Positions 1 through 62,639 of a stretch of DNA of 64,000 nucleotides are shown piece after piece. The stretch is from Loxodes magnus (taxonomy: Eukaryota > Ciliophora > Karyorelictea > Loxodida > Loxodidae): contig CAMPDV010000501.1 in assembly GCA_946699065.1 (NCBI GenBank), positions 62,001 to 126,000 of the forward strand. Reading direction: 5' to 3'. Both the position numbers and the translations under genes were made by a program. Position 1 is the stretch's first letter, and each line of letters begins with the position of its first letter. The notes below the pieces were generated by a model. That model had not been told where the DNA came from, searched no databases, and saw nothing but the letters and a program-made list of their open reading frames with translations.

Positions 1-2017
1 TAAATAAGATCCATTCAACTAAATTAAAGCTTAAAGATAAATTCATACAAGAGAAGAGTTAGTTGAATAAGATTTCATCTAAGGGGAAGCAGAATAAAAA
101 GGGCAGAGCTAGTAAGATATTAGCAAAATATTTAAAGAGTAGCTAAACTAAGCAAGAAATATATTATAAACCAACTTTAGAAATATCGATTTCTTTTATT
201 TGTTCTCAATACTTAAAGAACTAAAACTTCGAAATTAGAGAATCCAACAAAAATTTAAAAGCTTGAGTTCTACGAAATTTCAATCTGGTAAAAACAAATA
301 TTCTTGGAAAAATAAATTTAAAATAAAAACCATGATACAAGCATATCGACTTGCAGTTTTACTTAGAGTGGAATATAAAGAAAAGATTCTAAGAAACCAG
401 AATTTAGTATAAGTATATTCAAAACTCAAAAAGAAGATTTTAACAACTTTTAACCATTTTGAATGAAGAAACTATCTGATTAGAGAGAAAAACATATACA
501 ACAAATAAAAGCTTTCAAGGAAAGCATTACTACTGTAGTAGTGTTATATTAAACTTATATTTGAATTGTATTTAAAGCTTATAAATTTTAATAATCTGAT
601 ATAATTATATAAAGCAATGAATATTCAGACTCTATTTTAACAATATATTTATAGTTAGTAGAATACGAGATAATCTAATTAGATCTATTTAGATGGTAGT
701 ATGAGTAATTAATTAGATTCTATAAATCTTAAAAATTAATTTCTAAAATAATCATAATAGCCGTATTCACTATATCCTTACATTATCACATGGTCCACTC
801 ATATCTAGTCTATATGCTTTGCTTTATTAAACTTCATCTTACACTCATATCACGCTATTATTCAGTGCTAAGCTGTAAAAATCCAAATTTAATCTCATTA
901 TTTAAGTGAATAATCTAAATTTTTCCTTTCTGTAAGAGAAAGCAGATACATTCCTACCTTTATTAATGTTTCTACAAGCTACTAATAGAATCTTTTCATT
1001 TCCATTTAATAAACTCCTGAAATTCTCTTTCCCTTAGCTAGATTTACTTACTTCTTTGATTTATCCTTAGAACCTTAAAACTTTGTCTCGAAACTAGTGG
1101 TTATTATATCTTATTTAATTTGAGGGTAGAAATAAAAATTCTGTTACTTGTAAAGAAACTTTAACTTGATGATTGAAACAAAAGCTTAAATCAAAATAAG
1201 ACAAAATATTGGAAAGAATCCCATCCAAGTAAGATTGAAAATTATAAATTTGTTTAGTTTCAAAACCCCTGATAAGAAAACAGAGCTAGCTATCTTCTAG
1301 CACTCACTACAGATATATAAAATAAAAGGAAATAATCAAATGGTTGAAGCATTTTAGCTATGTTAATGATAGTTTAAAAGATAAGAGGTTTTATCAGGTC
1401 TTAAATCTAAAGAGTAAGGAAGAAAACTGATATTGATGGATCTTGTTGTTGCTATAAAGAAATAAACTGGGATTAATTTTTGTTTCGATGTAAGAAATTT
1501 GAAGGCTAGCTGAATTAATTAAAAAAGGGTAGATTTAGCTTCATTTTGTAAAATCGGAGGTAAACTTAAGTGTAGGTGAGTATCAGGAGGTTTAGAGAAC
1601 AAGTTCTTTTTTGATTAACTTATAAATAACTAAAAGCATAGAAAACTTAGATTAGTGATTAATTAAGAATTTTTATGATTTATGGTTTATTATAAATCAA
1701 GATGAATCGCTCTATCCATTTTTTATTTATTTTAAATAGTAAAATTGATCTTTGATATAAAAGAAAGAGTCAAATAGCTTTTATTTATAAGATAGATTTA
1801 GTAAGCTAAGTCTGCAAGAGACTGAAGAGTAAACAAAGATTTAGTAGCTAAATTATGAGATAGCAAAATGAATAAGCCTAGTATATGCTAGCAACTTTGG
1901 AGCATAAAAAGGATAATCGAGGAAAAATAATCTAGCATAATAATGGAGAAATAGGCTTTATCAGGTGAAAAAATATAAATGAGATAGCTTAGGTCGCTTA
2001 TTAAGAGAAATGAAACA
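1..2017. other. No gene recognised (left edge)
   Basis: AT-rich sequence with no reading frame on either strand that I could match to a family or to another copy in this window. It ends at about 2,018, where homology with the region starting at about 55,508 begins abruptly within a shared TTTACTCATTC stretch, so this edge is a duplication breakpoint. Short lysine-rich stretches exist on the + strand near 0.1-0.5 kb but could be chance in DNA this AT-rich. Confidence 0.5.
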
Positions 2018-2775
2018 TTTTACTCATTCTTCTAAATCAAAAAATCCAATAATTTAGGAGGGTTTTGTACATGATATTCCTTTAAGAGCTAAGACCAACC
2101 TTCAGCATATTAATTAGATGCTATTTCTTAAAATTGATTTATGAGCATAAAAGAACTTTTAGTTTGGTCAACTTATTTTTTTGAATGGTTTAAATTCTTT
2201 TTAAAATTAATTCCATCTTTTAATTGCTTAAACCTTCATTTAAGATTAATCCTTCTTGATAAATCTTTTGCTCCTCAATTAATAAAGCTGGCTATTGAGG
2301 CTAAGTAGCATTTGCATTGCTTCCTTAATTTGGGGTTAATTAAGCTCACTAAGAAGTTTAATCTTTTTTTATTAATATTTATTAATATTTTTGTACTTCG
2401 CACATCAACAGCTTCTTCTCTTCATTTTCATACTTTTTTAAAATTCAAAGTTTTAGTTTCGCTTAATCAGCATAGCTCCTTAATAAGAAGTCATCTATAA
2501 GCTTTGTTTCAGATAATTGTTTCGTTTATCTAAAACTCTTTAGCATCTAATATTTCTGCGTTTCTCAGATAAGGATATTTTTGAATAAAGCGTTAACTTT
2601 CATTATCTTAATAGTAATGTAAAGCGTTTTCATCTGTTTATCCATGAATACACTCCTCCATTAGTAAAGGTAAAGAATTTTACTCTTTAAACCCATTAAA
2701 ACTCGATTTGAGTATAAATCTACTTTATCCCTCAATCTTTTAGAGTATCTTTTAATCCTTAAAATTCGCGTCCAT
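2018..2775 (-). pseudogene. N-terminal fragment of a NACHT-WD40 gene
   Basis: Minus-strand sequence homologous to the first ~230 codons of the intact NACHT-pentapeptide-WD40 gene at 51,259-56,187. A start is visible at 2,773-2,775, reading MDANFKDQKILQKIEG, then LKSS and SLPLLMEECIHG; the intact copy has matching residues ([29 protein letters not shown]). Further in, frameshifts break the frame, and at 2,018 homology stops, long before the P-loop domain. It is a truncated copy created by the duplication breakpoint. Notably it keeps the ATG that block B has lost (ACG there), so it helps define the ancestral start. Confidence 0.75.
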
Positions 2776-42992: not shown

Positions 42993-43645
42993 AGAAAGCA
43001 AGAAAGCAAGAAAGCAAGAAAGCAAGAAAGCAAGAAAGCAAGAAAGCAAGAAAGCAAGAAAGCAAGAAAGCAAGAAAGCAAGAAAGCAAGAAAGCAAGAA
43101 AGCAAGAAAGCAAGAAAGCAAGAAAGCAAGAAAGCAAGAAAGCAAGAAAGCAAGAAAGCAAGAAAGCAAGAAAGCAAGAAAGCAAGAAAGCAAGAAAGCA
43201 AGAAAGCAAGAAAGCAAGAAAGCAAGAAAGCAAGAAAGCAAGAAAGCAAGAAAGCAAGAAAGCAAGAAAGCAAGAAAGCAAGAAAGCAAGAAAGCAAGAA
43301 AGCAAGAAAGCAAGAAAGCAAGAAAGCAAGAAAGCAAGAAAGCAAGAAAGCAAGAAAGCAAGAAAGCAAGAAAGCAAGAAAGCAAGAAAGCAAGAAAGCA
43401 AGAAAGCAAGAAAGCAAGAAAGCAAGAAAGCAAGAAAGCAAGAAAGCAAGAAAGCAAGAAAGCAAGAAAGCAAGAAAGCAAGAAAGCAAGAAAGCAAGAA
43501 AGCAAGAAAGCAAGAAAGCAAGAAAGCAAGAAAGCAAGAAAGCAAGAAAGCAAGAAAGCAAGAAAGCAAGAAAGCAAGAAAGCAAGAAAGCAAGAAAGCA
43601 AGAAAGCAAGAAAGCAAGAAAGCAAGAAAGCAAGAAAGCAAGAAA
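42993..43645. repeat. Perfect 8-bp satellite, about 81 copies of AGAAAGCA
   Basis: 653 bases of uninterrupted (AGAAAGCA)n with no visible mismatch. One strand is entirely purine apart from one C per unit, the other nearly all pyrimidine. Because 8 is not a multiple of 3, all three minus-strand frames are open and encode the same octapeptide repeat (LSCFLAFL). Those frames are artefacts of the repeat. Absence of sequence variation points to recent expansion by slippage, or to an assembly built from homogeneous reads. Confidence 0.98.
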
Positions 43646-45119: not shown

Positions 45120-46715
45120 AATGTTATAAATAACTAGTCATGCAAGCTAAGTAATAATGAATTTGAATCTATCTAGAAAGTTTAAACTAAAGATGAAATA
45201 CCCTATTGAAATTAAAGGGACGGAAAGAGTTTTGATAATAAAAAAGAGATCAGAAATGAAATAAATAGAATCAATAAACTGCATAGATTCTAAACTGTTT
45301 ATGCTAAATACTAATTTCTAACTACTCAAATTATATAAATATGATTGAAGGGGCTTAAAATTAAAAAATAGAGATACAAAGGAAGATACTATATTGATAT
45401 CATTTAAATAAAGTAAAGATAACTTATAATCTCACTTAGCCTAGCAAAGCGAAAGAAGAAACTAGCGAGGAAAGTTAAGAGATTAATAAAAGAGTATTAA
45501 CTAATTTGGTTAGAAGCTAAGCATGTAAATGGATCTATTTTGTTCGTACTTATGAAATATTAGCAATAAAGCACTAAATGAATGATTGCTTGATGCATAG
45601 AATACTTAAAGTAATAGATTATATATAAAGAAGATGTTTAGATTAGTTTAATAATTTAAGGAGAAACGATTATTATTAAACTAATTATAGTTAAAGAAAG
45701 CTGAAAAGAGTAGCTATAGAGTATTTAAAGAGAATTAAAGTGATATAGAAATAATTATTATTAAATAATAAAGCTTTATAGTTTTATAGTGGAAAGATAA
45801 GTAATTAATAGCATTTCTAATGTAAAGTGTAAAATAGCGAGTTAAAATATGCTTGATGAACTATAATATCAAATAAATAAAAGAAAACAGACTAATAATT
45901 TGAATAATATGGAACATAAGACACTATATTTTTATAGAGTATTAATTATAATGGTAAGCGTAATTAAGATAAGCAAGTGTGTTACAATAATATAATCGTA
46001 ATGCTTAATAAACACATTGCTTAAGATTATATAGAATAATTTAGTTACATTCATAATAGCTATTAGCATAGATTTACACTTAAGGATCATGCTAAATTAT
46101 TTTAATTATCTAGATTTCTTAAGTTTAATAATTACTCTTTTATAAGATCATTAGGATACAAGGAAAACCAATAGAGCCATTTAAAACTGATTGACTACTT
46201 TAAAAAGTTATAAAAAGCTTAGAAAATTAGTTTATATTAAATGTCCTCTAAATAATGCTATATTTTTCTGTTTAAACTTGCCAAATTTTCGGAATGATAC
46301 TGTTATTAATACAATTAAAAGGATTTAGGCAAATAATTAATTTACGCTGCTTTTATTTAGTATACTACAGAAATCTTTATTAGACTCCCTTATTTTGGAG
46401 AATTAACTGTTCTATCTATCTTTTCATCTGTAGCCCGGCTTATTTTGCCTTCTATTTGCAAGTGAAAACTAATATTTTAAGTTAAAATAATCATAATTCC
46501 AGCTTGTTAGTAGTTATTTATTGTATTTTTTTCAAATATATCTAAATTTTATCTTTTATATTAAGGAGTTAAGCATTAAATATAATTTCTTAGTCATCTA
46601 TTTAGTCTCTGACCACGTTTCGTCCCAATCCTTTGATAAAATGTTAAAACTTTGATAGATACTATAGACTTTTGTGGTATTTAGATGCCTTAGATTAGCA
46701 ATATATAACTTAATG
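45120..46715. other. AT-rich stretch without recognisable genes
   Basis: Nothing recognised. The sequence ends at a GC-richer block that leads into the ORF1 at 46,890. Confidence 0.5.
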
Positions 46716-46719
46716 GAAG

Positions 46720-47460
46720 GAAAAATGGTAGAAGGGCTCAAGAAAGGTTTTTATACCACCTCCTAAAAAGGGGAGAGAAAGTAAGAACCCTCATCTTTAA
46801 CTCACACATCTTCTTCCTAGAAATAATCTTCTTCTCAAAACCTTCAAGAATAATAGACTCAAATAGGAACTTCCAGACCAACCTAAAAGATGGGACAAAA
46901 GCGCCAAAAGGCTACCCCGATGACACCAACTAAAGAGGAAGGACCTAGAAAGGTACTGGAGACGCAAGAAGCAGCAGTCGTGCGAGAGTTTGCGATGCCA
47001 TAGTTCCAGGAAGAACAGGCATAAATTTTAGTCGCATTCTCTGACCTGAAGAAGGAAGTAAAGAAGCTAAAATTAGAGAATAGAGCTAAAAAAAATCAAG
47101 TTAATGAGCTCAAGGAATGGAAAGAAAGCTTCTGGGAAATCTATGATCGAGAGCAAAACACTTTCTTCAAGGAAATGGGATTGCTGCAGCAGAGAACAAC
47201 TATGATTGAAGAGAACAGCAAGTAGGAAAAGTAGTAGGAATTCAAAGTTAGGACAATTCGAGATCCAATGGACATAGAAGGAACTACTAATTTACCGAGG
47301 AGTCCAGGCAAGAATGAATTAGGAATAAACCAGGATGCTTTGTATGCAATCAAACTGGACATAAATATAGACAATGTTAGAAATTGAAATTAATTAAATA
47401 ATAGTATAGCTTAAGCACAAACATTAACTTAACTTATTTTATCTAGTTTTCTAGTTGATA
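46720..47460 (+). pseudogene. Retroelement ORF1 with zinc knuckle in the -1 frame
   Basis: ATG at 46,890 begins MGQKRQKATPMTPTKEEGPR. A coiled coil follows (ILVAFSDLKKEVKKLKLENR; VNELKEWKESFWEIYDREQN), then TIRDPMDIEGTT. The frame ends at TGA 47,385 after 165 residues. A perfect CX2CX4HX4C knuckle, C-F-V-C-N-Q-T-G-H-K-Y-R-Q-C, lies at about 47,330-47,375 in the -1 frame, preceded there by TEESRQE-W-IRNKPG with W as TGA. Either one base was lost near 47,290 or a -1 frameshift is programmed. Codon use and GC are richer than the surroundings, suggesting a young insertion. About 170 bases of GC-richer leader precede the ATG. No RT or family I/II terminus follows. Confidence 0.65.
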
Positions 47461-47464
47461 TAAT

Positions 47465-48165
47465 TCATTCAGATTAAAAATTTAAATATTTCCAGTTCCT
47501 TCATTAAAAATACAAACTTACTTTTAAACTAAAACTGTGATCAGTCTTTTTTGCTGGCTTTTAAAAATATATAGTTACTAAAATAGAATCCTTAATAGGA
47601 CTATATTAAACTAATTTAAAAAATATACAATGCGAAAATAATACGCTAGAATCTTTAAATAAGATCCTATCTACAGATTTTATAATCAAACCAATAAAAA
47701 ATATAAAGAATAATAATTTGCTATAAACTCAAGAGATTGAAAACACAAAGATCAGTTTAGATGGAACACATCTAAATGTATAGAAGATTAATTAAAATTG
47801 TTTATATTTGAACAAAAATTTATTTAATGGAATAGTCATATTTAATGTGACTTTTAAACAATAAAGTAGATTAAATTTAATGAAGTTTCAACAATCATTA
47901 TTTTCATACTTTAAGCCAAAGTCTCTAGTTTTACAAAGATGATATAAATTTTCTAAATTAAGTAATAGCTTTTGATTAAGCATTTTATTCATTTAAATTT
48001 GGATTTTATTCTAGCTTTTATAAATAATTTAGTTTAACTTTATGCTTATGTTGCTTTTAAGCTGTTTTAACATTAAAAGAAATTAAAGTATGTAGTGATA
48101 TGGTACTAACTAAAAAATAGAAATTATAATTTTAATATTTAAAGAAATGGTTCAATAATAAATAA
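47465..48165. other. AT-rich stretch without recognisable genes
   Basis: Nothing recognised between the ORF1 and the tRNA-Lys fragment. Confidence 0.45.
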
Positions 48166-48222
48166 GCCAGTTTAGCTCAGTCGGTAGAGCACCAGCCTTT
48201 TAAGCTGGTCAAGGGTTCAAGC
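48166..48222 (+). pseudogene. 3'-truncated tRNA-Lys (TTT)
   Basis: GCCAGTTTAGCTCAGTCGGT contains the A box and a normal D arm. The anticodon arm CCAGC-CTTTTAA-GCTGG gives anticodon TTT. The T arm starts (AGGGTTCAAGC) but the sequence breaks off in the T loop; the 3' halves of the T stem and acceptor stem are missing and there is no terminator. Both internal promoter boxes are largely present, so it may still be transcribed. It could be a tRNA-derived SINE head or a simple 3'-truncated pseudogene. Confidence 0.85.
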
Positions 48223-48224
48223 AG

Positions 48225-48785
48225 TTAATTAAAGTAGTAATTAATTAACAAGAAGAAACTAAGTATTTAAAGTAAATTTATTGAATATGCTAGCAAATAG
48301 GAAGTATTTAGCTCAAACTAATTTATACAAATGATGCTGAAATATATATCATTCAAAAATTATTACAGAAAAAAATACCGAAAAATTAAAAAGATAGCTC
48401 AATAATTTGTATATTAAGTTTATTATTTATAATTCAAGCAGAAATACCTTAGAAAATTTAACATTTTTTATAGTAGTTGTTCTTGCTTTAATATTGCCTA
48501 AGAAAAAGCAGAATATTTCAAATAAGAAATTTTACCTTCTAGATTCACTATTCTTTAGATGTTTAATTTAGGTTAATCCTTCTTTTACTTAAGAAGTAAA
48601 AAGTTTTTAAGCTTTAATGTAGGAATCATTTATTCTTAAAATTTTTGAAGCAGAAATTTTTTTTTCTATCTCTATTTAAAAGTTTCTAAGCTATTACTAA
48701 ATCTTTATCTATATAATATATCAGAAATTTCATTTAGTTTTAGTTTTGATTTTCCATTTTATGTATTATATAATATAAAATGAAT
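48225..48785. other. AT-rich spacer
   Basis: No gene recognised. It separates the tRNA-Lys fragment from the GC-rich element head at 48.79 kb. Confidence 0.45.
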
Positions 48786-49205
48786 GTCGGCCGCGTCAGA
48801 AAAACTAATTGGTAATCTGGTGCAGTGTATACTGCATTGCGAGTAATCTCGCACTAGATGCCACCACGGGGAAGGGTGGATAAGCTCCGTTAAGACATAT
48901 CTAACTTACTCCGAGGGTTCTCTCAAGCAGTATGAAAATTTGACTGACGTGCCTTAATGATTTAATAACTAATTCTTATTTGGACCTTATTCAAGAAGAC
49001 TGAAGCATTTGACTCAAGATTTAAGAATAATTTTTAATAAGAAGATTCCCCATTTGAAGAAGCTGACATGACTCATTGGATTTCTAGAATTTTAACAAGA
49101 AACATGAGAGCATTTTTCTTAATTTTAAATATTAATATTGAAAGAGCTGCGCGCCAATGAGGTGCTACGTGCTTTATAATCATTTTTATTTATTTATTTA
49201 ATTCG
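48786..49205 (+). mobile_element. SINE-like element with folded head and family I 3' end
   Basis: The first ~180 bases (48,786-48,965) are a GC-rich island closed by GCGTCAG/CTGACGT and containing hairpins GCAGT-GTAT-ACTGC, TGCGAG-TAAT-CTCGCA, CCACC...GGTGG and GTTAaGA-CATA-TCTAAC. About 170 AT-rich bases follow. Then comes the family I stem-loop (AGAGCTGCGCGCC ... GGTGCTACGTGCTTT, 49,141-49,185) and a TTTATTTATTTA tail. A structured Pol III-type head, short body and LINE-like 3' tail is the standard SINE plan. The head does not look like tRNA, 5S or 7SL. The family I terminus is shared with R1 and with 21.43 kb, so one LINE machinery may mobilise them all. Confidence 0.6.
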
Positions 49206-49439
49206 TAATTTGATAAAAAGATTAGTAGAGAAGTACTTTATCATTTAAATATAGAACTTATTTAAATTAAAAGAATAAGGATAAAAGATGAAGTTTGGAG
49301 ATTATTCTAAAATTATATAGAGTAATTATATATTTTTAATATAAAATATAAATTTATTAAAAGTTAACTATAACTTAATACAAACTATTAAAATACGCTT
49401 TCTATTTATATCTTTTATCTCCTAAATTTTAACTATTAG

Positions 49440-50420
49440 TCTCGCTCACAAATTATAATATCTTTAGATTATCCACTAGCAAAAAACCCATTTATATCAT
49501 GAATCTCAATAGATTTTTTTTCTTCTGAGAATAATTCTAAATCAATGATATTTTAGACTTCACAGTAATCTCTTATCGAAACATGGGTAAACTAATTCTC
49601 TTTTTGTAACTTTACTCTTTTATCTAATCAAACATCCTATATAATTTTATTTTTATTGAATTACTCTTTTCACTTTTAATTTCCTTCTTCAAGTCTTCTA
49701 GAAGGTACTTATATATTCTATAGTCAATGGAAGCTTTTACCTTATTTTGATAGCACTGTTTATTGCCTTATATTATCCCATTTCATCATACACGTCAAAT
49801 AAAAACAATATTTTCTAAACTTAAAACTTTCTTTTTCTTAAATTATACTGTTTTAAAAAGCAAATTCTTTTAATTAATTTTCAAATGCTTTAACAGTTGG
49901 AACATTTTTTAATATATAAAAATATTCATGCTCATACTCTAGATAATTTAAGATTAGAATTTCTAAAAAATAAATTTTTCAGAACAAGAATCTCAAAAAG
50001 TAATAACCCTGCTTAACTATCATTATCTAAAAATTTGGAAACTTCAACTGCAGATCGTTCTATGTCTTAACCTTGGATTTGAAGCACATTACAAATTTAA
50101 AAAATATTCTTATTTCCTTACATCTTATCAATTAATTTTTTATAATATTTTAATATATTTTTTACATTTTAAAGCAAGCCAATTCTATTCTATTGTTTAA
50201 GTAAATTAAAAAGCAAGGTCTAGAAATGTTAAAATTCAATTTTATATCAGGTTTTAATTTCAAAATGACACAATATTTTAGAATTATAAGAATCCATCTT
50301 CGATATATTACCTTGCTAGATCATAAGCAAGAATATCAAAGATATTTAACATTAAAATTGTCTTCTTATGAAATTTTTTTTTATCAATCCATGACTCCTT
50401 ATAAAGAAGTTCTTTAAGAT
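49440..50420 (-). pseudogene. NACHT-domain pseudogene
   Basis: Minus-strand homology to the NACHT part of the intact gene (its 53.46-54.79 kb region). FLFDVYDEMG at about 49.78-49.81 kb matches the Walker B of the intact copy ([10 protein letters not shown]). The P-loop region near 50.0 kb has lost its frame (the GDSGSGKS stretch is degenerate), and the section between 49.6 and 49.75 kb shows a deletion relative to the intact gene. No WD40 repeats follow. It stands about 0.8 kb downstream of the intact gene, in tandem with it, consistent with birth-and-death evolution. Confidence 0.75.
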
Positions 50421-50579
50421 AGAGATAACATAAATATCCATAATTACAACTCAAAACTACGAAGCAAACTACCTTCTGGCAAACGAAATAACCTTGTAGA
50501 ACATTAAAATAATGATTTAGTAAATTATTTGGAACGATAATAAATTTAAAAATTAGATTTTTTATCTTAAAGTGATAAA

Positions 50580-51258
50580 TAAACTTTTAAAATTTTGTTT
50601 CATCCCAAAAAATTTTAGTCCGTCCAAAATACTTTAGTCCGTCCCAAAAAAACTCATGTAGTGTAAAACGATGAGCAAAAAAAATACTTATTTTCACATC
50701 TTTTACACAAAATTACATACTCTCATACCCTCATACCCTCATAATTCATATACTTATATCCTCATACCCTCATTAAAATATCTTTTCTTCAAAACTCTTC
50801 TTAAACCTTTCTTTTCCTTTCTTTCCACCTAAACACTAAACCCTTCAATAAAAAAATTATTCACCATACTCACACACTTTTTTTTCAATCCATACTCACA
50901 CTCTATAATTTAATTTACCTTTATTCACCACCAGCCGTACTCATACTTTCGTACTCACATTTATCTAATTAAAATATCTCTCTTTTTGAATTCAAATACT
51001 ACACTTTTTTAATTCCTTTTACTAACCTCAAATACTTATATTCTTTACTCTTAACTTATTCCTTTGCAATCTCCTTTTCTAAATTCTCATTGAATTTCTT
51101 CATATCCAACTCACTTAACATTACTCACTTTATTTTTCCAATCACTTATATTTATCTAACACAGCATTTTCCCACTTGTCTCGTGAAAATTAAAAAAATA
51201 GTAAATTTTTTACTTATCTTAATTAAATTTTAATTATTTGTAAAAATTTATTCAAGTC
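50580..51258. other. 3' flank of the NACHT-WD40 gene with short C-rich repeats
   Basis: Contains several CATACCCTC/CTCATACC repeats (50.71-50.78 kb) and generally Y-rich + strand sequence. The TAGTCCGTCC ... CGATGAG motif at 50.63-50.69 kb recurs downstream of the other WD40 gene (28.48 kb). No gene seen. Confidence 0.45.
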
Positions 51259-54200
51259 TCATCCCAAAGAAAGATATTTGTCTCCCATTAGTCTCATATT
51301 CATCTACTCCATTGCCACTCCCTCAAAATCACATTGATGCACCACCAATCCATTCCTTCCTATCATCCTCTTTAACACATAATCACGATAATTCTTTGCT
51401 AACTCCCATATCTTTATTGTTTTATCCCGACTTCCAGATATTAAATATTTGTCGTCACCTGATAATACCAGAGAATAAACAGAATTAGTATGACCCTCTA
51501 ATGTTCCTATGAGCACATATGTTTACATGTCCCATATCCTTATTGTTTTATCACCACTTCCAGATATTAAATACTTGTCGTCACTTGATAATACCAGAGA
51601 AGTAACACCAGAAGAATGACCCTCTAATGTTCCTATGAGCACATATGTCTACATGTCCCATATCTTTATTGTTTTATCCCGACTTCCAGATATTAAATAC
51701 TTAGAGTCACTTGATAATATCAGAGAATTAACCCAATCAGCATGACTCTCTAATGTTCTTATGAGCTCATATGTTTACATGTCCCATATCCTTATTGTTG
51801 TATCCTCACTTCCAGATATTAAATACTTAGAGTCACTTGATAATACCAGAGATCTAACAGACAGAGTATGACCCTCTAATGTTCTTATGATCTCATATGT
51901 TTACATGTCCCATATCTTTATTGTTTAGAAACTTCCAGATATTAAATACTTAGAGTCACTTGATAATACCAGAGAAGAAAAATCAGAAGTAAGACCCTTT
52001 AATGTTCTTATAAGCACATATGTTTACATGTCCCATATCCTTATTGTTTTATCAAAACTTCCAGATATTAAATACTTAGAGTCACTTGATAATACCAGAG
52101 AATAAACAGACAGAGTATGACCCTCTAATGTTCTTATGAGCTCATATGTTTACATGTCCCATATCTTTATTGTTGCATCCCGACTTCCAGATATTAAATA
52201 CTTGTCGTCACCTGATAATACCAGAGATTCAACAGTATCAGCATGTCTTTATAGAGGCTTAGTAAGATTATCTACCTACATGTTCCATATCCTTATTGTT
52301 GTATCCTCACTTCCAGATATTAAATACTTAGAGTCACTTGATAATACCAGAGAAGTAACACCAGAAGAATGACCCTCTAATGTTCCTATGAGCACATATG
52401 TCTACATGTCCCATATCTTTATTGTTGCATCCCGACTTCCAGATATTAAATACTTAGAGTCACTTGATAATACCAGAGATTCAACATACCAAGTATGACC
52501 CTCTAATGTTCTTATGAGCTCATATGTTTACATGTCCCATATCCTTATTGTTTTATCAAAACTTCCAGATATTAAATACTTAGAGTCACTTGATAATACC
52601 AGAGAATTAACAGTCCAAGTATGACCCTCTAATGTTCTTATAAGCTTATATGTTTACATGTCCCATATCCTTATTGTATTATCATCACTCCCAGATATTA
52701 AATACTTAGAGTCACTTGATAATACCAGAGAATAAGCAGACCAAGTATGGCCCTCTAATGTTCTTATGAGCTTGTATGTTTGCATGCCCCATATCCTTAT
52801 TGTTGTATCCTCACTTCCAGATATTAAATACTTAGAGTCACTTGATAATACCAGAGAATAAACATAATTAGTATGACCCTCTAATGTTCTTATAAGCTCA
52901 TATGTTTACATGTCCCATATCTTTATTGTTGCATCCCGACTTCCAGATATTAAATACTTAGAGTCACTTGATAATACCAGAGAAGTAACATCAGAAGTAT
53001 GACCCTCTAATGTTCTTATAAGCTCATATGTTTACATGTCCCATATCTTTATTGTTTTATCATAACTTCCAGATATTAAATACTTGTCGTTACTTGATAA
53101 TACCAGAGAAGTAATATATTCATTATGACCAGCTATGGTTGGCATTTAACCAAAATTAACCTAACTCATATTTGCACCATTGAATTTACAATTCCTCAAC
53201 CAAGCTCCCCTAAAATTCACCCTTGATAAATTAACACCACTCATATCACAACCATCAAACATCGAATCACTCAAATCCGCCCCAGGTACTTAGATATACT
53301 GAAGATCTGTCATTTACGTAAACTGATAATCCATCCAATTCAATATTGTTATACAATTAGCACCCACTGTTTATAAAGCTTTATTGGATCTTGTTTACTT
53401 CACTATCTACAATAAATTTTATTGAAATGTAACCGAACTATCAATCTCCCTTATAAACTACTAGATCTCCTTATTGTCCGTTATCGAATACTTATTAATA
53501 TTGTGAGTCTCTATAGAATTTATGCTTTTTTGCTAATTTAATACTAAATTTACTATATTCCTTGCCACATAGTAATCCCTTATTGAAGCATGAATAAACT
53601 CAAATCTCTTTTAACCATTTTCCTCTTTTATCTATATCAAACATCCTATGTGGTTGGAACTCTCAGTCAATTAATCAATTCATTACTAGATTTCCTTATC
53701 CATACTCTCTAACTTTAACTAACCTCTTAACATCTAGTATGCTGCACTTATTTAAATATCCTAAAATAACTTTAACAATGTTTGTATTTCCTCATTTTAT
53801 TTATTTAATTCTTTTAACTTTTATTCAGTTTTATCATTTCATTTATTTATAAAGATCTCATATATCTTTGCCCTTTACACCTTTTTATCCACTCCACTCC
53901 TCAAATATTCTATTATTTCCTCCTCACTCATACATATATATAACATAAAAGGATTATTTAGAATTTCCATTAAACCCGGAATACTTTAGATGATACTCAT
54001 TTACTCTTTTACCTTTTCAATCATTTCTATTTACTACTCATTCACAATTTAACTTGGATCTTAATTTGCACTTTAACTAGCACCTTGATTCTATTTTCTT
54101 AAGATTAAACTTATATATTATTCTATCTAACTTTGATCAAAAGGCTTTATATATACCTCCTCCAATTGTTTTACCTAAGCACTTTCATTTCTATAAGGAG

Positions 54201-56187
54201 AAAAGAAATTTTTATAATTATCAGCTGTTAAAGCATAATTGATTCTACAAGTAATTATATACTTTGCCTAAGGGTATTTATAGCTTATTTTATTTTTACT
54301 CATTATGCTAATATAATTTCCTAATTCATCATAAGCATCAAATAGAAACACCATCTTCCTAAACTTCGAACTTTCATTTTCCTCAATTTTGCAGTTTTTT
54401 AAAGCTGTCTCTACTAAACTAGATTTATAATTTTCAATAGTTGGAAGATAAACGTATATCGGTAGTCATTCATGCTTCTACTCCAGATACTTAAATGCTA
54501 AAGTTTTCATAAATAGAGATTTTCCTGAACCTGAATCTCCCAAAAGTAATAATCCAATTTTATCTTTATTGTCTAAAAAGTTCTAAATTTTGCTTTCAAG
54601 ATTATTTTATTCCTTAGAACTAGGACTAGGAGCACATAATAAACTTACGTAATACTCCTTCTTTTCTTAAATCTCATTTTATAAATCACTTTTCATTTTC
54701 TAATATATTTTACTGTCTATACCCTTTAAGGCCAACCAATTCTCCTCCATAGTTTAGGTAAATTAAGTAACATGGTCCTAATTCTTTAGTATTTCTATTA
54801 CTATCTATTGTTCCCTATCATTTTAAATTAAGTTTTCATTCTTTTGCTTAAATACTCTCTCCTTGTAAGTTGTAGCTACTTAGTTCTTGTCAATGCTTAG
54901 TTCTAATAATTATTTCAAAGCAAAGTATCGAATCTACCAATCTTTATCCTTACACAATTGTTCTAGCAGCTAGCACGATTCCTTAACTAGTTCTGGAGAA
55001 GCTTTAGGATTTTTAATCATATGCTTCAAAAGTTAACATGCTCTAAATCTTAAGTCCAACTTTTCTTTCAAGATGAGACTTTTAAATTGTTCAAACGTTA
55101 CTTACTTATATTTAATTATCAAGTCATATGTAAGAGCATCCAGGTATCTTATTCTAACTATTTTTTTAAGGTGAATTTTTGACTTTATTTATTTAGTTCC
55201 CCAAACAATGAAATCCTTTATTATGGAGATCGACTTAGTATCTATTGTTCCATCTCCCAACGATAAAGCAACTACCCATTAAGTGACTTTTAATGCCTTA
55301 CAGAAAACATTAAAGTAATCAGAATCTTTATTGTCTGGAATATTTTCCAATATCATCTAACTGTATCTTAAGTCAAAATCAAGCTCGGGACCTCCTATTT
55401 ACTTTATATTTACTAACTTTAATGCAAACTCAATTTTTTACATGAGTTTCCCTTTCGTTTCTGCATTTATGAAAAAATCATTATTATTCTTATTTTTCTT
55501 ACTTTTATAAGAGTTTTACTCATTCTTCTAAAGCAACATATCCAATAACTCAGGAAGATTTTATACAAGCTACTCCTTCAAGAGCTAAGACCAACCTTCA
55601 GTATATTAATGAGAGACTATTTCTATAAATTGATTAATTAACACCAAAGGATCATCTAGTTTGGCCAGTTTATTTTTTTGAATGGTTTAAATTCCTTGTA
55701 GAACTAATTCCGTCTTTTACTAGCTTAAACCCTCTTTTAAGAGATTTAATCCTTCTTGATAAATCTTTTGCTCCTCAGTTAATAAAACTAGTTATTATGA
55801 TTAAGGAACATTTGTATTGCTTCCTTATGGGAGTAATTAAGTTAATTGAGGGGTTTAATCTTTTTACTTCGTACTGCAACAGCCTCCTCCCTTCATTTTC
55901 ATACTTTTCTAAAATTTAAAGTTTTAGCATTATTTGATCCGCACAGCTCCTTAATAAGAAGTCGTCTATAAGCTTTCTTTTAGATAATTTGTTTAGTTTA
56001 TCTAAAACTCTTTAACATCTAGTATTTCTGCGTTTACCAGATAAGGATAATTTTGAATAAAGCTGTAACTTTCAGTAACTATATAGTAACCTAAGGCATT
56101 TTCTACTATTTGTCCTTGAATATACTCTTCCATTAGTCTTGGCAAAGTTTTATTATCCATAAGCTAATTATTACTTGATTTTAGCAT
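51259..56187 (-). CDS. NACHT / pentapeptide-like / WD40 STAND protein (NLR-like)
   Basis: About 1,642 residues, ATG 56,185-56,187 to TGA 51,259-51,261, with TAA/TAG as Gln. Residues 1-540 are helical. Walker A GDSGSGKS is at about 550-557. Walker [10 protein letters not shown] is at about 613-621. [12 protein letters not shown] and [19 protein letters not shown] follow, as in NACHT and its winged-helix region. A pentapeptide-like patch ([20 protein letters not shown]) lies at about 967-1010. Fourteen 42-residue WD40 repeats fill the rest. Three in-frame TGA codons lie at 54,466 ([11 protein letters not shown]), 53,839 (NK-W-NDK) and 53,680 (QQ-W-IDQL), all at Trp-compatible sites. STAND ATPases oligomerise after the sensor domain binds its ligand, here probably the propeller. 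Coding similarity continues upstream of this ATG to 56,241, where block A has ATG and this copy ACG, so the native start is uncertain. No intron was needed to read it. Confidence 0.88.
51400..53150 (-). repeat. Fourteen near-identical WD40-coding repeats (126-bp period)
   Basis: Each unit encodes [20 protein letters not shown], then ISGSxDxTIxIWDMQTYxLIxT. The framework is almost invariant even in DNA. Changes concentrate at the three residues around 'V' after GH (NSVY, SGVT, DWVN, LSVR, SDFS, DTVE, WYVE, WTVN, WSAY, NYVY, SDVT, EYIT) and on each side of the D in SGSxDx (R/G/E/F/D/Y before; K/T/A/N after). One unit is 3 bases shorter (GSFQTI, about 51.93 kb) and one linker is rewritten ([20 protein letters not shown], about 52.25 kb), both in frame. 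High repeat identity implies recent duplication or gene conversion between units. Confidence 0.93.
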
Positions 56188-56617
56188 AAATCTAATTTAA
56201 GTTTATCTCTCAACCTTTTTGAGTATCTTTTAATCCTTAAAATTCGCGTTCGTTTAAATTTGCTAGGCTAATCAGATTATAACATCATGAGATTTTAGAA
56301 ATCCATATAATTAGCTTTAAGACTGAAAGCCATGACAGCTTCCAAGAATTTAACCGAAGATAAAGCAATTTGAATTGCAATATTGAGGCATTTTATAATA
56401 TTTTAAAAGTATAATATCTAAGAATATAAAAGATTTAATAAAATGTCTATTATAACTAATTACTCCATCTATTCGCATTAGACACTTACTATCTAAACCT
56501 ATAATAAACTACTAATTATACTACTATTTTATTTATTACTATCAACTAACTTAACAGCTACTCTTTTAAGACTATCTATCACTTCAATTTCATTAAAAGT
56601 CATTTTAATTCACGCTA

Positions 56618-57376
56618 ATGAACCATATCTAAATACTCCTAATCAATACATCTGCTATTGTCTTTATCTGATAATTAGTTTCGTATATGATACAATTAGA
56701 CTTTGAGATATTGTTTTGAATGCCTTTATTGATGCCTTCTATTATTGTCCATGAAAGACTAGAAATAGCTAAGAGATTTGCTTATCTTTTTTGCATAAAA
56801 AAGAAAGAAAATAAGCTTGGCGATATGTAGCCTTACTTTTTATATTTGGTGTAATAGTAAATATTTCAGCAAAACGAAAATTAAGTTATAAGCTATTAAA
56901 TTAATCAAAGAGTTTATAAGATGGTATCTATTCGTGCAGAACATAAATAAGATAAAGAACAAATCTCACTAACTTCTTTATATAAAGAAGAAGGAAAAGA
57001 AGAACAAATAAATAAATAAGCTGTATTAATTAATTTAAATATAAACTAATTAAAAAACAAGCAAACTAAGGATTATTAGTCTTTAGATAAGCTACTACTA
57101 GTAAATCTTAAATTGCAAGTTTATAAGTAAATCTAGTAAAATAATAATTAATAAATTGATATAAGTAAATAAAGAATATTCAGATATCTCTTAAATTACT
57201 ACCAAGTAATTCTTATTTCAGATTTAAGTTTATTAACTAGAAGCTTTAGTTCCTTATTATTTTTTCATCTAAACTAGCATAAAATGTCAATTATTTATGA
57301 TACCTAGAAAAAATTAATTAAGCAATAATAATCAAGCGCTAATATATACTTAAGGAATAATAAATAAGTTTAATGA
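56618..57376 (+). pseudogene. Unknown membrane-protein gene P, copy B
   Basis: ATG at 56,618 begins MNHIQILLINTSAIVFIWQL. Its W is TGA, where copy A has GTA. It continues LDFEILFWMPLLMPSIIVHE, with TGA as W at 56,717, the same position as copy A. The frame runs through KEEGKEEQINKQAVLINLNI to TGA at 57,374. A one-base insertion near 57,315 relative to copy A shifts the frame and truncates the product; homologous coding sequence continues to about 58.1 kb in other frames. It is divergent from the NACHT gene, with about 430 bases between their ATGs, so the two may share a promoter region. Hydrophobic N-terminus suggests a membrane protein; family unknown. Confidence 0.6.
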
Positions 57377-58437
57377 AAAATTTAAAAAATCTAAGGAATA
57401 AATCAAGTTGAGACAGAGAAAGAAAGAATTATCATTTTTAAGCTATCTACCTTTCATAAAATTGTGAAAGATTTGGCGAAGCTAATCAAATTTCGTAATT
57501 ACTTAAAAAAAATAAAAAGAGGCAAAAATTCCTGAATGGGCCAAAGATAGCTTTAGTTTCTAAACAATTAATTAAAATAGAACATATAAGGATTTTTATC
57601 GAAAATCTAAGATTTGAAAAAGAAGATAATTCTATAACACAAGTAAGGAGAATCTGAACAATCTCAATTTTATACTAAAGCAATTACCCAATTAAATAAA
57701 CGCTAAAAGTATACTGCTACTAACAACATAGATTCAGAACAAAAAGGTAAAATATATAAATAAAATTGATGCTGGAATTTTGAGAAAGTAGTTACAAGCT
57801 AAACTGCATGTGCAAGTTGAAAATATTTAAATGTATAATAAATAGAAAAACTTCAAAATGTAATTTAAAGTAAGCATAAATTATATTTGACTGGAAAAGT
57901 CTTTATGTGAACTGGATTTAAAAAGAGATTCCTTATTCCTCTAGAAGAGTTAAGAGATCAAATAGAGAAACAAATATTATAAATAAATATTTATCACAAT
58001 ATCTTAAGAATAGAATAAAAAAAATAACTTAAAGAAAAATTGAACAGGATCATAATAATTAAAAAAAGGAGTAAGAAAGAAATTGGTCTATTACTTAAAA
58101 TCCCTGTTGAATACATATCAAATTTCCATTATAAGCTTTACTGAAGCTCCTAGGGAAATTTTTCTACTATTGAAGATATGACTTGGATAACTTAGACTCT
58201 TGAATTTTTTATATTAATTTTAAAGTTTATTCTTAATTAAATATCTTCTTATGCATTTCTTTTCTTGAATGTTTCTCATTTTAAACTTTTATAATTTCTA
58301 AGATTCTTTTATTGGATATCTAATATAAATTTTCCCTAAAGTTTCTACATCTAGTAAAGTGCGTGCTCCAGATAGTAGTTATTTTTAACATTCTAAAAAT
58401 GTAAGTAAATATAGATTAATTTCTTTTGTATTTTTAG

Positions 58438-61375
58438 TCAGATTAATTCAAATTCTCCCACATATTGCTCTAAATCTGAGTAATCTTTCTTGCATTTGTT
58501 TTCTTTTTGCTTGGAAAGGTATCTTAATTTCCTTATCTTAATAAACTGCTTTTTTTTAAAATAATTTTAGCTTTCATGGAACTTCCTCTCTAGTCCTTAA
58601 CTTTTTAATTCAGCCTTTATGTTTTTGATATAGCTTCTAGATACTGAAATATTTATAAAGTCCTTTAGTCTCAAATTTTTTGGGTTTTATCTTGTATAGG
58701 TAGATTGATAACTTAACGTTTAGACTTTTTTATTTGAAGATAATTCCTTAAACCAAACTTTACCTATTTATCGCTTTCATATTATAATTAATTTTAACTA
58801 TTATATTAATCTAAGATAACTAAGCTTAGGTTATAAGAGAGATTAATTAAATCCCTAAACTTTTATAATAGCTTGACTAAATTTAGGCTCTTTTATTTAA
58901 GTAATATGACTGGCTTTTTAAAAATTAAGCAGCTTTTTTTATTTAACTATAAATAAGAGCTTAAAAAGCTCTCTAAATTTAACTGAAAAGATTAGTTTTG
59001 TCATCGAGGAATTCTTGAAATAGCCTTGCTTTTTTTGTTCATTTAACCTTGTTTTCGTTATTTTTTATTATAGCACTGCTTACTATTCCACATGTTCGCT
59101 TATATCTTAAGAATCCTATCCTTTTTCTACTTTTTGTTTTGCTTTAATTAGTATCTTAAAGTAGATTTAGAGTTAGAAAGTGGCAAAGGCTGAGGAGAAA
59201 TATTGATTTTTTCTAGAATTGCTCTAATAACTTACTGTAGTTTTAATCTCTATGGTGTAATCCTTGTAATTTCAATCCTCTTGGTTCATAGGCTTTAGAT
59301 TCACTTTAAAAAGTAATCATTTAGTTAATTTTCCAAGGATAACAAAACTTATTTTTCTCACCTCTAGCTCTTTTACCTTACCAATTTTTGTTATATTTGC
59401 TCAATTTTTTGTTTAGCTTTTGTGATTGGAAAGACTACCTTGAACTCTTTAATTTCTCTACTCCTAAAATAATTCACTTAGATAATTCGAAATCATCACC
59501 TGACGAAGAATAAAGCAGCAACTCAACTTTTTAAGCTCTTTTGTGAAGAATCTGCTAAAAGTTGTCTTTTTAATATTTTTTCTAAACTTATGTCATTTTG
59601 AAGAAAATTCTTTATCTTAGACTTTTAATTAATAAGCTTCTTCTACTTTGCAGGTAAATAATACTTAGAATTACTATCTAAGATTAAGGCTTAAATTTAT
59701 CTATATACCTTTATTTCTTAAGAGCGTTTTCTAAAATATTAATTAGATTTACCTTCATTCCACTAAGTGCTTCTTCATAATTAAGAGCTGCTTTTGTTTT
59801 AATCTGAAATTAGATTATTTCTGTTTCTCAGCTATGATAATGATAAAGTTTTGTCATACGGAGCTTTTAGTTTCTAATGTAATTTAATTCTTAAGAAGCG
59901 TTAGGAGATTTTAAGAATTTCATAGATTAAATGGAATTAGTCAACCTATGGGAATTATGAAGAACGCCGCACTTCTCTAAAATTAATCCTGTAATTCTGC
60001 TTTACGAGTTAAAAGAATTTTAAAAGCTACTAGTAGGCAAACTTTTAGATATTTGAAACTTCTCAAACGAGTTTACTTATTAGCTCTTAATTCATTTTAC
60101 TCTCCTCAGATAAAGAACTATTCCTCCTGCTGACTTAAATTGTTATCATTCATTTAATTTAATTCAATCTAAGGTTTAATCCTACCATGCTATTTTATAA
60201 TAATCTCTAAGTGGATAATCCTTTAGTTAGTGCTTTAATGCTCTGCTTTTATTCTACTGCTCTTAATTTTCTAAATTTAGGGGCTCTTAACTTAGTTACT
60301 AACTCTAGAGCTAGTAACTACTCTAAATTTGGATATTACTTACGATTAAAGAGGTTTTATTTCAAGTCTATTTTTTCAAAACTAGGCTTTACAAACAATA
60401 GTTCGTCCCCTTTTAATAATCTATTTCATTACACAAAAAATCAAAACACTATTAACTAAGCCTTACTCTCCAGTCCATTTAGGTTTTCTAACTAGCTTCA
60501 GAACATTCAATTTCTGATAACTTCAAGTGAGCAGCATTTCAAGAAATACACTTGTTTTAATTATGACAGATGGCAGCCGTTTGGGATTACTTGGAGTTGA
60601 TAAAGGAGAAGTCTTAGATGTGATTATAGCTTAAGATAGGATTCTGTAAAATGTAAATTATAAGTATTTGAAGTTCTTCTCTGATATACAACTATGAGAT
60701 AGTATTAATGTCGTTATCAACTATAGATATTATCAAGTATCATCTAATAATTATCCGAGGCTGAATTCACAGGATCGTTAGTTTTACCTATTTGATTATC
60801 TAATTAAACAATTTTACCTTCACAGATAGTTCTGTCAGGTTTATAATAATTTCCTAGAACTCCATACGAATCATTTTTTTATTCAACGACATAACTCTAA
60901 GGCTTAAAGTTTTAAACTGTTGAAGCTAAATTAGTTAATTTAATTTATAGACAAAATTCTGAACTAGCTAGACTTGGCAGCAATTGGGATATGTTCTAAT
61001 TGTACTCTCGAGGGATAGTAACTAACTTAAAATGAGTTAAATTTACTAAATTATAAACAATCTATCTAGTCAATGCTAAGATATTTTTAATCAAGATATA
61101 ACTCATACAACTTTAGGCCTTCCTTTGCTCCAACTAAGATATCAGTACTATTTACCTCATATCTAGCTTAATAAGTGGTTTGTAATTGCACAATTTGAGG
61201 AAAAAAAGGCAATTTTGTTTGAAGTAAAAGAATCTCTACATTTAAGGGATTGTCAGTTGCATCAGAAATCTTGCTACTATCAAGGCCTCTTTTGCTCCTA
61301 GGAAGTGAATGAGTAGCCTGCAAGTATATATTAGATAGATTTATAATTAAATACTTCTAAGGAGTTTGCTGACAT
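58438..61375 (-). pseudogene. Unknown gene X, copy B
   Basis: ATG at 61,373-61,375 begins MSANSLEVFNYKSIQYILAG. A one-base offset follows, then a long clean frame: GLDSSKISDATDNPLNVEIL, LPFFPQIVQLQTTYQARYEV, STDILVGAKEGLKLYELYLD, YPSRVQLEHIPIAAKS. Further pieces are YGVLGNYYKPDRTICEGKIV (about 60.85 kb), LFNRKQYPNLEQLLALELVT (about 60.33 kb), ELLLYSSSGDDFELSK (about 59.5 kb), FKKPVILLKQKSLNLVKLLQ (about 58.9 kb), NLRLKDFINISVSRSYIKN (about 58.65 kb) and the end EQYVGEFELI with TGA at 58,438. About 900 residues in total if joined. Several frame changes mean introns or decay. Conservation with copy A proves past coding. Family not recognised; the repeated 'ILVG..EG..LYEL' phrase vaguely suggests beta-propeller. 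Confidence 0.6.
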
Positions 61376-61829
61376 TTTAAAATCTATATCTGAATATAAA
61401 ATAAAATAGTTGAAGTTAAGTCTAATTTTTAAAGGAAATAAATAAAATGGTTAAATAGTAATTGAAAGGGATGCTTAATAAGCCGAAAAATAATTAAGAT
61501 AAAAAAAAAGATTAGGCAAAAAAGCTATCATTATAGCATACCATAATAGAAATAAGTATAATTATTAAAAGTTACATTGAATAAATCTAAAAATTTACTT
61601 TTGAAATAAAGGTCTAATCTTGTTAAGCATAGCTTAGAATTATAACTATTATTAAATTTGTATAACAAATAAGAGTAAAAGTTTGTTGTAGCTAAAAATC
61701 ACTAATTCAACTCTTTTAAACGTTGGTTCTATTTTATGCTTAGACATTTTTCTTCCAGTTTATTATATCATTTTTCAGTTGGTACTGAATTTCATCAACC
61801 AGCAGAAATCAAAGAGGACTGCTTCTGGT

Positions 61830-62480
61830 TAGGACTTAAAATAGAAATAGATAATTCGGAGATATTTATTTAAAGACAGATTTGCTTAATTAGAACAAGC
61901 TACGAAACTAGATAAAGTAAGCACTAGATATCCTTAATTTATATTCGAATCAAAGATAAAAAAGCGGCTAAATGACAGCAGAAAGTTTATTTAATATTCT
62001 AGAGTTGGATTGCCAAAACTGCTATGATATAGAGTGGAATAAGCTATGTTTTCCTATTACTTGATTTACTATTGCCAAATCTTTAAGATCTTTTAATCTT
62101 CTGACATCAAAAGTTCTAACAAAGACTGTTTTGATGTGCCCTGATAATATGGTTATTTTACCTTTAAAAATAACGAGAACTATATCTATGGAAATTATTT
62201 CAATATTTGATATATTAGACCAGATAACTTTCTTGTTATGAGTGGAAAAGAACGCTTATCTAATTATGTAACTGGCTTTGGACTTACTAATTTGTACAAA
62301 GAAAATAAATTTCACTAGCATATTCCTAATAGAGAAAACTAAAAATTGAATGAAAATTTGAGATATGCGATCAGAACTAATTGGGATTGGTTAATCAAGG
62401 CAATTTGGTTTAGAAAATTTTTTAGATAGGCTTTATATACTTCTTAGTAGCATATTGCCTAGGCAAGGATGTAATAGTAG
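61830..62480 (+). pseudogene. Casein kinase 1-like protein kinase relic, copy B
   Basis: Counterpart of the relic at 8.6-9.3 kb and more decayed. TTCGGAGATATTTATTTAAA preserves the FGDIYL glycine loop at about 61.86 kb. The activation-segment region is badly eroded. NWDWLIKAIWFRKF at about 62.38 kb keeps TGG where copy A has TGA and TAG, which suggests that copy A's TGA arose from TGG. No catalytic motif survives. Identified mainly through block homology. Confidence 0.55.
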
Positions 62481-62639
62481 AACTAAACAAGAAAAGCATC
62501 TGATTTGTATTTAAGCTAAAAGAAATAATTAAGTAAATATTTCCAAGTAATAATAAATTTTAGGCTATATACATTTAATAAATTTAAAATGATCTAGTAA
62601 TTAAAGCGTTAAGCTTTCTTATTTTTATACTTTTTTCTA

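Follow-up and report, generated by a model that had tools for sequence, protein, structure and literature searches.

A NACHT-WD40 gene in Loxodes magnus

The window analyzed here is a 64,000-nucleotide stretch of the genome of the ciliate Loxodes magnus (contig CAMPDV010000501.1, positions 62,001 to 126,000), and its main subject is a minus-strand gene that encodes a NACHT NTPase followed by an array of 14 WD40 repeats (Table 1). The gene is a single open frame that begins with an ATG at 56187 and ends at a TGA stop at 51259-51261; the true start may lie upstream of this ATG. A reading of the DNA from its sequence alone had placed 14 WD40 repeats at 51400..53150 in a protein resembling NOD-like receptors (NLRs), and both the repeats, at 51385-53130, and the order of the domains bear this out. 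The layout is that of NLRs and of NACHT proteins among the signal transduction ATPases with numerous domains (STAND): an NTPase with Walker A and B motifs precedes a C-terminal repeat domain, the putative sensor. The Pfam NACHT family (PF05729) matches 26 of 26 family members at E<=1, with a best E of 4.4e-6. The names that we give to the motifs of this region, and its winged-helix end, are our own presumed assignments. Pfam HEAT likewise matches the N-terminal region of all 26 members at E<=1 (E=0.012 in the window member). Upstream of the array, the median dN/dS over 300 pairs is 0.34, which indicates purifying selection. A HET-domain protein was considered and ruled out, as Pfam HET has no match in the window member.

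The DNA is of about 25% GC, and its reading frame follows genetic code 27, which is reported for karyorelicts and the L. magnus macronuclear assembly (PMC11441545): TAA and TAG are read as Gln, in-frame TGA as Trp, and the terminal TGA serves as stop. Three TGA codons lie in frame, at 54466-54468 (aa 574), 53839-53841 (aa 783), and 53680-53682 (aa 836). In a 26-row family alignment every member keeps W574 and W783, and nearly every one W836; at least three in-frame TGAs, counted irrespective of position, occur in 44 of the 45 near-full-length matches described below, the window gene included. Because the three TGAs encode Trp under table 27, the Trp residues are retained in the family, and nearly all matches share such codons, a pseudogene reading is rejected.

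Table 1. Coordinates of the window gene, its parts, and family remnants (window positions)
Feature	Position	Strand	Remarks
Whole reading frame	51262..56187	minus	1642 aa; TAA/TAG=Q, TGA=W
N-terminal region	54565..56187	minus	Predicted all-helical; weak HEAT-like matches at ~aa 378-430; putative effector/adaptor
NACHT (STAND) NTPase and winged-helix end	53563..54564	minus	Pfam match; motifs by sequence
Walker A, GDSGSGKS	54517-54540	minus	Motif in NACHT
Walker B	54322-54351	minus	Motif in NACHT
Sensor-like YIITCR	54244-54261	minus	Motif in NACHT
Winged-helix-end motif	53563-53604	minus	End of NACHT region
Pentapeptide-repeat linker	53152..53280	minus	Pfam PF00805, E=1.7e-9; 26/26 members match
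Array of 14 WD40 repeats, 126-bp period	51385..53130	minus	Tandem Repeats Finder, Pfam WD40; modelled four-stranded blades, probably two 7-blade propellers
Repeats 1-7, putative first propeller	52249..53130	minus	
Diverged linker VDNLTKPL in repeat 7, putative propeller boundary	52252..52275	minus	After repeat 7 in 19/22 complete arrays
Repeats 8-14, putative second propeller	51385..52248	minus	Up to WELAKNYR
Decayed family copy (N-terminal/NACHT pieces)	49403..50259	minus	tblastn; 31-40% aa identity; 3' of window gene
Fragment of another member's N-terminal region (aa 1-225)	2017..2715	minus	tblastn

The array and its predicted fold

Tandem Repeats Finder (TRF) resolves the array as 13.6 copies of a 126-bp unit with 86% matches, and Pfam WD40 matches it at E=2.1e-162. 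Twelve repeats are 42 aa long, repeat 10 has 41, and repeat 14 merges into the C-terminal tail. The sequence-only reading had called the repeats almost identical in DNA; tandem similarity holds, but that wording is too strong, as pairwise identity among the thirteen 42-codon segments (repeat 14 plus tail included) averages 84% and ranges from 69% to 94%.

An AlphaFold-type model of the array shows four-stranded blades at a predicted local distance difference test score (pLDDT) of 69.4; repeats 5-7 and the tail are modelled with low confidence. Whether ranked by sequence (2.1e-120) or by Foldseek E-value, the array's best match in the PDB is 2ymu. This entry is titled a highly repetitive propeller structure, and we take it to be the 14-blade WRAP domain of Npun_R6612 from Nostoc. 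Foldseek also matches two-propeller chains, 3shf and 3sfz (Apaf-1) among the matches, but with template modelling (TM) scores of about 0.4 or less and a root mean square deviation (rmsd) of ~20 over the whole array. By Z score in VIA-align 2 the best structural matches are ordinary scaffolding propellers such as ODA16 (the top match; Z 33.9, rmsd 2.8, 324 aligned) and Rsa4. The 14 repeats probably fold as two 7-blade propellers.

A large gene family with a preferred array length

Other NACHT genes with similar repeats, whose presence the sequence-only reading had suggested checking, are plentiful. All genome searches were made in one assembly (705.7 Mb, 7,843 contigs). A query of the N terminus plus NACHT gave at least 45 near-full-length matches, the window gene included (45 scored of 2,665 candidates), and hence at least 44 relatives. 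The diverged repeat-7 linker occurs at 82 exact sites genome-wide (control, 0), which fall into 68 loci on 49 contigs when hits no more than 6 kb apart are merged, and a 33-nt repeat core has 884 exact copies (control, 0). A 200-aa query from a distant member, L039, covering the NACHT end and pentapeptide repeats, gave at least 150 matches, itself included (150 scored of 591 candidates, the weakest of these at E=1.8e-46). Fourteen loci from this last search were inspected; 13 have a WD40 array, and L069 has none recognizable in the frame read. As the assembly contains duplicated stretches and perhaps both haplotypes, counts of loci are not counts of genes. With the same architecture on many contigs, an assembly artefact at one locus is ruled out.

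Array length was compared among 22 complete arrays, which are the best-scoring hits plus L039 rather than a random sample and include both the window gene and its near copy L010. Fourteen repeats are present in 18 of them, 15 in two, 17 in one, and 52 in one (L039). The diverged linker follows repeat 7 in 19 arrays, three of which have extra copies elsewhere; it follows repeat 8 in two and is absent from one. Because 14 repeats and a linker after repeat 7 recur so often, the pattern points to a 2 x 7 closure constraint. The 52 repeats of L039 (G000:C2076:32000-39500) arose from block duplications, and its NACHT belongs to another subfamily. Eight more loci (L001-L008) match NACHT; by eye, L003 and L006 show a pentapeptide-like stretch after the NTPase and no conserved array in the stretch inspected. 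In the comparisons below, L009, which is the window itself, was dropped as a separate row, and the near-identical duplicates L021, L024, L025, L032, and L035 were excluded from counts of sharing, identity, and dN/dS.

Variation is concentrated at five codons per repeat

The repeats were numbered from the G of GH as codon 1, and codons were counted in repeats of exactly 42 codons (249 of 360 segments). The sequence-only reading had claimed that amino acids vary at a small fixed set of positions around a conserved Val and beside a conserved Asp. This proved accurate, the variable codons being 4, 5, and 7 around V6 and 23 and 25 around D24. The concentration goes far beyond chance. Among 199 distinct repeats from 30 loci, the window included, the proportion of non-synonymous differences (pN) at these five codons is 0.63, 0.60, 0.58, 0.67, and 0.38, respectively, against a pooled synonymous proportion (pS) of 0.176; at V6 and D24 pN is 0.039 and 0.004. 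Codons 15 (pN 0.45) and 28 (pN 0.26) vary too. Codon 15 acts more like a gene-level marker, with the same residue in 74% of within-gene and 47% of between-gene comparisons.

In the window array itself the five most variable codons are 4, 5, 7, 23, and 36, with codon 25 sixth. Across 24 arrays, codon 23 is always among the top five; codons 5 and 7 reach that rank in 21 arrays, codon 4 in 20, and codon 25 in 12. This ranking comprises 13 of the 21 complete-array genes and 11 further loci; it omits L010, L012, L015, L016, L020, L022, L023, and L027, as well as L062 (the L039 gene), L064 (near L063), and L069. In the 11 further loci, and in seven distant loci used in the index comparison below, repeats were picked by a pattern that fixes the V-like and D-like positions and misses repeats that do not fit it. 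The variable-to-backbone contrast is 2.2- to 3.9-fold in the seven arrays from distant loci with their own backbones and 3.3- to 10-fold in the other 17.

In the array model, codons 4 and 5 precede strand a, codon 7 lies at its start, and codons 23 and 25 sit in the b-c loop; by the established WD40 topology these loops lie together on the top face of the propeller. Wu et al. take hotspot R1 from the pattern (V,L,I)-R1-R2-(V,L,I), R1-2 two residues earlier, and D-1 directly before the tetrad Asp (PMC3419727), and their rule as given there makes codons 5, 7, and 23 the top-face hotspots R1-2, R1, and D-1. That the variable positions lie on one face, as the first reading had held, is thus what both the rule and the partly confident model predict.

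Selection at the variable codons

The counts speak for diversifying selection. Among repeats of 21 genes (L039 left out), 73 pairs have identical DNA at the other 37 codons. Eleven of these are wholly identical, and the remaining 62 differ at 222 variable codons, every one of the differences (222/222) being non-synonymous. In pathway-averaged nucleotide counts, the same 62 pairs show 372.5 non-synonymous to 30.5 synonymous steps, where random single changes would give 3.7:1. Diversifying selection at the variable codons is therefore supported by the counting method, in line with the positive selection across repeats for which the first reading had proposed a codon-wise test.

The way in which the residues are written is also constrained. 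In 20 genes (L039 and L010 left out), the dominant codon for each amino acid covers 91 to 99% of its occurrences at the variable codons, against ~60% expected from codon usage upstream of the array in four members (highest of 1,000 simulations, 72%). All four bases occur at the first two positions of codons 4, 5, and 7, while the third position is mostly T. Residues for which an NNT codon exists mostly use it, and a different third base appears mainly where the amino acid demands it. Selection on a shared pool of variants fits this pattern better than does random targeted mutation.

Concerted evolution within genes and a change of relatedness at the 3' module

Repeats resemble those of their own gene. 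Backbone codon identity, with repeats 7 and 8 excluded, is 0.854 within genes and 0.820 between genes, a difference above 200 of 200 label shuffles. The nearest neighbor of a repeat lies in its own gene for 13 of 13 repeats in the window and, in the diverged arrays L070, L072, and L073, for 5 of 13, 4 of 10, and 6 of 11. In nine genes, chosen as distant and excluding close relatives such as L010, backbone codons are closer within a gene than to the repeat of the same index elsewhere, with hardly any effect of index. Index-wise orthology of repeats across distant loci is ruled out by this comparison; the closest gene pairs do match by index. The repeats thus evolve in concert within genes.

Linkage among the variable codons, computed without L010, L031, and L034 in addition to the near-identical duplicates, is mainly short-range. 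Excess mutual information amounts to 0.50 bit for codons 4-5, 0.12 bit for 5-7 (6 bp apart, z 2.7), and 0.18 bit for 23-25; across the repeat it is ~0.01 bit for 5-23 or 7-23 and 0.14 bit (z 3.1) for 4-23. Identical 111-nt backbones are found in up to six genes, a point in favor of repeat exchange between genes. Close gene pairs behave in two ways: the variable positions differ in 12 of 12 repeats compared in L012/L013 (97.9% identical upstream) and L016/L020 (97.5%), and they agree in 9 of 12 repeats between the window gene and L010 (98.0%), 8 of 12 in L027/L031 (98.6%), and 11 of 12 in L030/L034 (99.3%).

A second NACHT subfamily comprises six loci (L039 and L063-L067). To the left of the motif HIGCLIQI, these are 42 to 45% identical to the window gene (46/103 in L039, 59/139 in L065, 60/139 in the other four); to its right, down to the array, identity is 88 to 92% (151-159/172). 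Members of the window's own subfamily give 115/140 and 143/172 (L029), 118/134 and 157/172 (L026), and 139/140 and 172/172 (L010) on the two sides. Because relatedness changes so sharply at this junction, the 3' end and array appear to have been exchanged or homogenized between NACHT subfamilies.

A further contig, C953, is collinear with window positions 45423-63219, at 98.7% and then 92.4% identity; segmental duplication or haplotype divergence could explain it. Per 500 bp, mismatches run to 0.2-1.8% in the array; one flank has 0-1.6%, and the other reaches 12.6%.

Other features of the window

The decayed family copy downstream of the gene indicates birth and death within the cluster. At 29252-30019, on the minus strand, lies a second, shorter WD40 array, which is 39 to 43% identical to the main one; TRF gives it a 126-bp period (29533-30009), and TGA recurs at the W-like position of its repeats. 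At 42993-43645 there are 81.6 copies of the 8-bp unit AGAAAGCA with 100% matches, and short tandem repeats with 19-, 8-, and 23-bp units occupy 50603-50773, just 3' of the window gene. A GC-richer island seen by eye at 48787-48945 could be an RNA gene, and it has no Rfam match at gathering score. Near it, at 48166-48227, is a weak Rfam tRNA match that is absent from the ARAGORN list.

Interpretation

We read the window gene as one of a large germline repertoire of NLR-like non-self receptors under diversifying selection in L. magnus, and give this reading a probability of roughly 0.6. The WD40 array would be the sensor, each blade presenting a few hypervariable top-face residues, and the ligand bound there would most likely be a protein of a bacterium, virus, symbiont, or food organism. 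Binding would free the NACHT NTPase, leading to oligomerization and switching on the helical N-terminal part. Diversifying selection on five codons in each repeat would maintain diversity; meanwhile, recombination between repeats would homogenize the backbone and reshuffle the codon variants, and 3' sensor modules would move between NACHT subfamilies.

Several observations weigh against this reading. On the side of the protein, no effector family is recognized in the N-terminal ~540 aa by Pfam, PADLOC, or NCBIfam; the AlphaFold model of the N terminus and NACHT is of low confidence (mean pLDDT 39.5); the window NACHT is diverged, scoring 24.8 bits against the Pfam gathering cutoff of 26.7; and WD40 proteins have many non-immune roles. 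On the side of selection, the evidence consists of counts of pN/pS and codon differences. The identical-backbone pairs are non-independent, and one pair from each of the 10 groups leaves a mean of 32 non-synonymous and 0 synonymous codon differences; the pathway-averaged counts contain 30.5 synonymous steps next to the 372.5 non-synonymous ones; and the contrast is weak (2.2- to 2.5-fold) in the more diverged arrays L070, L072, and L073.

On the side of shuffling, identity at the variable codons is higher inside a gene (0.26) than across genes (0.18), a difference that exceeds all 200 shuffles. Exact repeats common to different genes all (14/14) stand at the same index and are confined to the window gene with L010, L027/L031, and L030/L034; because sharing is limited to these three closest pairs, any exchange of single repeats between genes is putative. 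The 14 repeats of the C953 array correspond one for one to those of the window array, in unchanged order, and the 42-codon repeats among the first 11 differ at 5 non-synonymous codons (2 at codon 3 or 7, 3 in the backbone) and 4 synonymous ones. This copy weighs against very fast turnover of the array, which is invisible on that scale. The sequence-only reading had cited repeat shuffling and positive selection from fungal NLRs; in Loxodes, selection, by counting, and concerted evolution within genes have stood up, and visible turnover has not. The immune or allorecognition role that it suggested is putative.

Recognition could be directed at conspecifics instead, with variable proteins from other Loxodes clones as the ligands, for instance during conjugation, in the way that HET-D and HET-E sense HET-C in Podospora. 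The NACHT-WD40 order and the selected codons are as in the Podospora HNWD family (PMC1805685), and the predicted double 7-blade propeller is as in HET-E (PMC12222747), as far as these sources describe them. Against this, nothing that was tested points to conspecific ligands, the Pfam HET match is lacking, and the loci outnumber the 10-member Podospora family, which would better suit a broad range of ligands. We regard allorecognition as unlikely, and xenorecognition seems likelier given the size of the repertoire.

A non-immune family of WD40 hubs, with fast-changing endogenous partners in the cytoskeleton, prey capture, or vesicle traffic and amplified in a duplication-prone genome, strikes us as a little less probable again. 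The scaffolding propellers at the head of the structural matches and the lack of a recognized effector domain would suit it; a STAND NTPase joined to a diversified sensor is typical of recognition systems, and endogenous partners would rarely drive repertoires of this kind.

More speculative is an extension of the receptor reading, which we also consider unlikely: a genome-wide pool of codon variants, reshuffled blade by blade among probably more than 100 NACHT-propeller receptors, would form an anticipatory combinatorial repertoire, and new arrays may arise by programmed recombination at macronuclear development. The karyorelict macronucleus is reported to develop in asexual division too (PMC11441545).

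Targeted diversification, in which a diversity-generating retroelement (DGR) or other programmed mutagenesis writes into the variable codons, could account for variation concentrated at the same five codons on similar backbones, for the third-base T of codons 4, 5, and 7, and for the weak linkage of codons 5 and 7 at 6 bp. It is nonetheless very unlikely. About one-fifth of codons 4 and 7 and one-third of codon 23 end in A or G, which adenine-only mutagenesis of NNT would not produce; random mutation should leave synonymous changes, of which the 222 differences contain none; and the collinear C953 copy holds the same repeats.

Least probable of all, and disfavored by the codon-difference, dominant-codon, and codon-position tests, is a neutral origin as unconstrained surface positions in recently amplified arrays, for although the variable codons lie in or beside loops in the array model, hotspot variation is described as general in highly repetitive WD40 proteins (PMC5587647), and third-position diversity at the variable codons (0.11-0.49, in the same 21 genes) is on the whole higher than at other codons (mean 0.154), codon 25 excepted, pN far exceeds pS, all the codon differences between identical backbones change the residue, one codon per amino acid dominates beyond expectation, and at codons 4, 5, 7, and 25 diversity is much greater at positions 1 and 2 than at position 3.

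Comparison with known systems

The pattern itself is not new: Podospora shows it, and other highly repetitive WD40 proteins show a weaker form of it. Apaf-1 likewise joins a STAND NTPase to two WD40 propellers, which are conserved, non-diversified, and of 7 + 8 blades.

The closest parallel is the HNWD family of Podospora anserina (HET-D, HET-E, HET-R), in which NACHT is likewise followed by highly conserved WD40 repeats (PMC1805685) that evolve in concert and are predicted to form a double 7-blade propeller (PMC1805685, PMC12222747). Paoletti et al. report strong positive selection there at codons 7, 9, 25, and 27, flanking conserved codons 8 and 26 (PMC1805685). Shifted by two, they correspond to codons 5, 7, 23, and 25 of the Loxodes repeats, where pN by counting is 0.38 to 0.67, so that the parallel to HET-D and HET-E drawn by the first reading holds at the scale of the family. 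In HET-E the 2 x 7 arrangement is predicted from 11 conserved and 3 cryptic repeats (PMC12222747, in the part at hand), whereas all 14 Loxodes blades are highly conserved repeats. The Loxodes gene further differs from HNWD in lacking a Pfam HET match, in its pentapeptide linker, in its ciliate host, and in reading TGA as Trp; its loci are far more numerous than the 10 Podospora genes, and exchange of single repeats between genes has not been caught in it.

In bacteria, the WRAP domain of Npun_R6612 from Nostoc punctiforme is described as a C-terminal set of 14 near-identical WD40 blades on a STAND protein, forming two 7-blade propellers (PMC9218822); Loxodes, in contrast, has a family with diversified codons. 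DGR-diversified NACHT proteins of multicellular bacteria also place a diversified sensor on a STAND protein, and the adenines targeted there lie in first or second codon positions (PMC10907252). Their sensor, unlike the Loxodes propellers, is a C-type lectin; it is diversified by a reverse-transcriptase mechanism. Highly repetitive WD40 proteins of bacteria, fungi, and protists share high internal identity and diversity at interaction hotspots; in the portion of that account available, the hotspot pattern is not linked to a NACHT repertoire (PMC5587647), and the word "ciliate" does not occur in its main text, the supplements lying outside this check. NACHT and WD40 have 0 occurrences in the main text of the L. 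magnus genome paper (PMC11441545), and among the papers listed by searches in open-licence PubMed Central (subscription papers and preprints lying outside them), none joins such genes to ciliates by its title or the start of its abstract.

New, as far as we have seen, are the ciliate repertoire, its size, the all-canonical 14-blade sensor with a pentapeptide linker, and the codon-pool signature. Fungi are known to have diversified NACHT-WD40 sensors, and bacteria to have near-identical propellers linked to STAND domains; if our reading is right, a ciliate repertoire of this size would extend NLR-style recognition by hypervariable propellers to another distant lineage. The Loxodes family also lends itself to testing how diversity is maintained on a single scaffold that leaves few positions of each blade free to vary. 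That a fungus and a ciliate coincide in these codons, and that both share the number of 14 blades with a cyanobacterium, points to a structural rule for such sensors.

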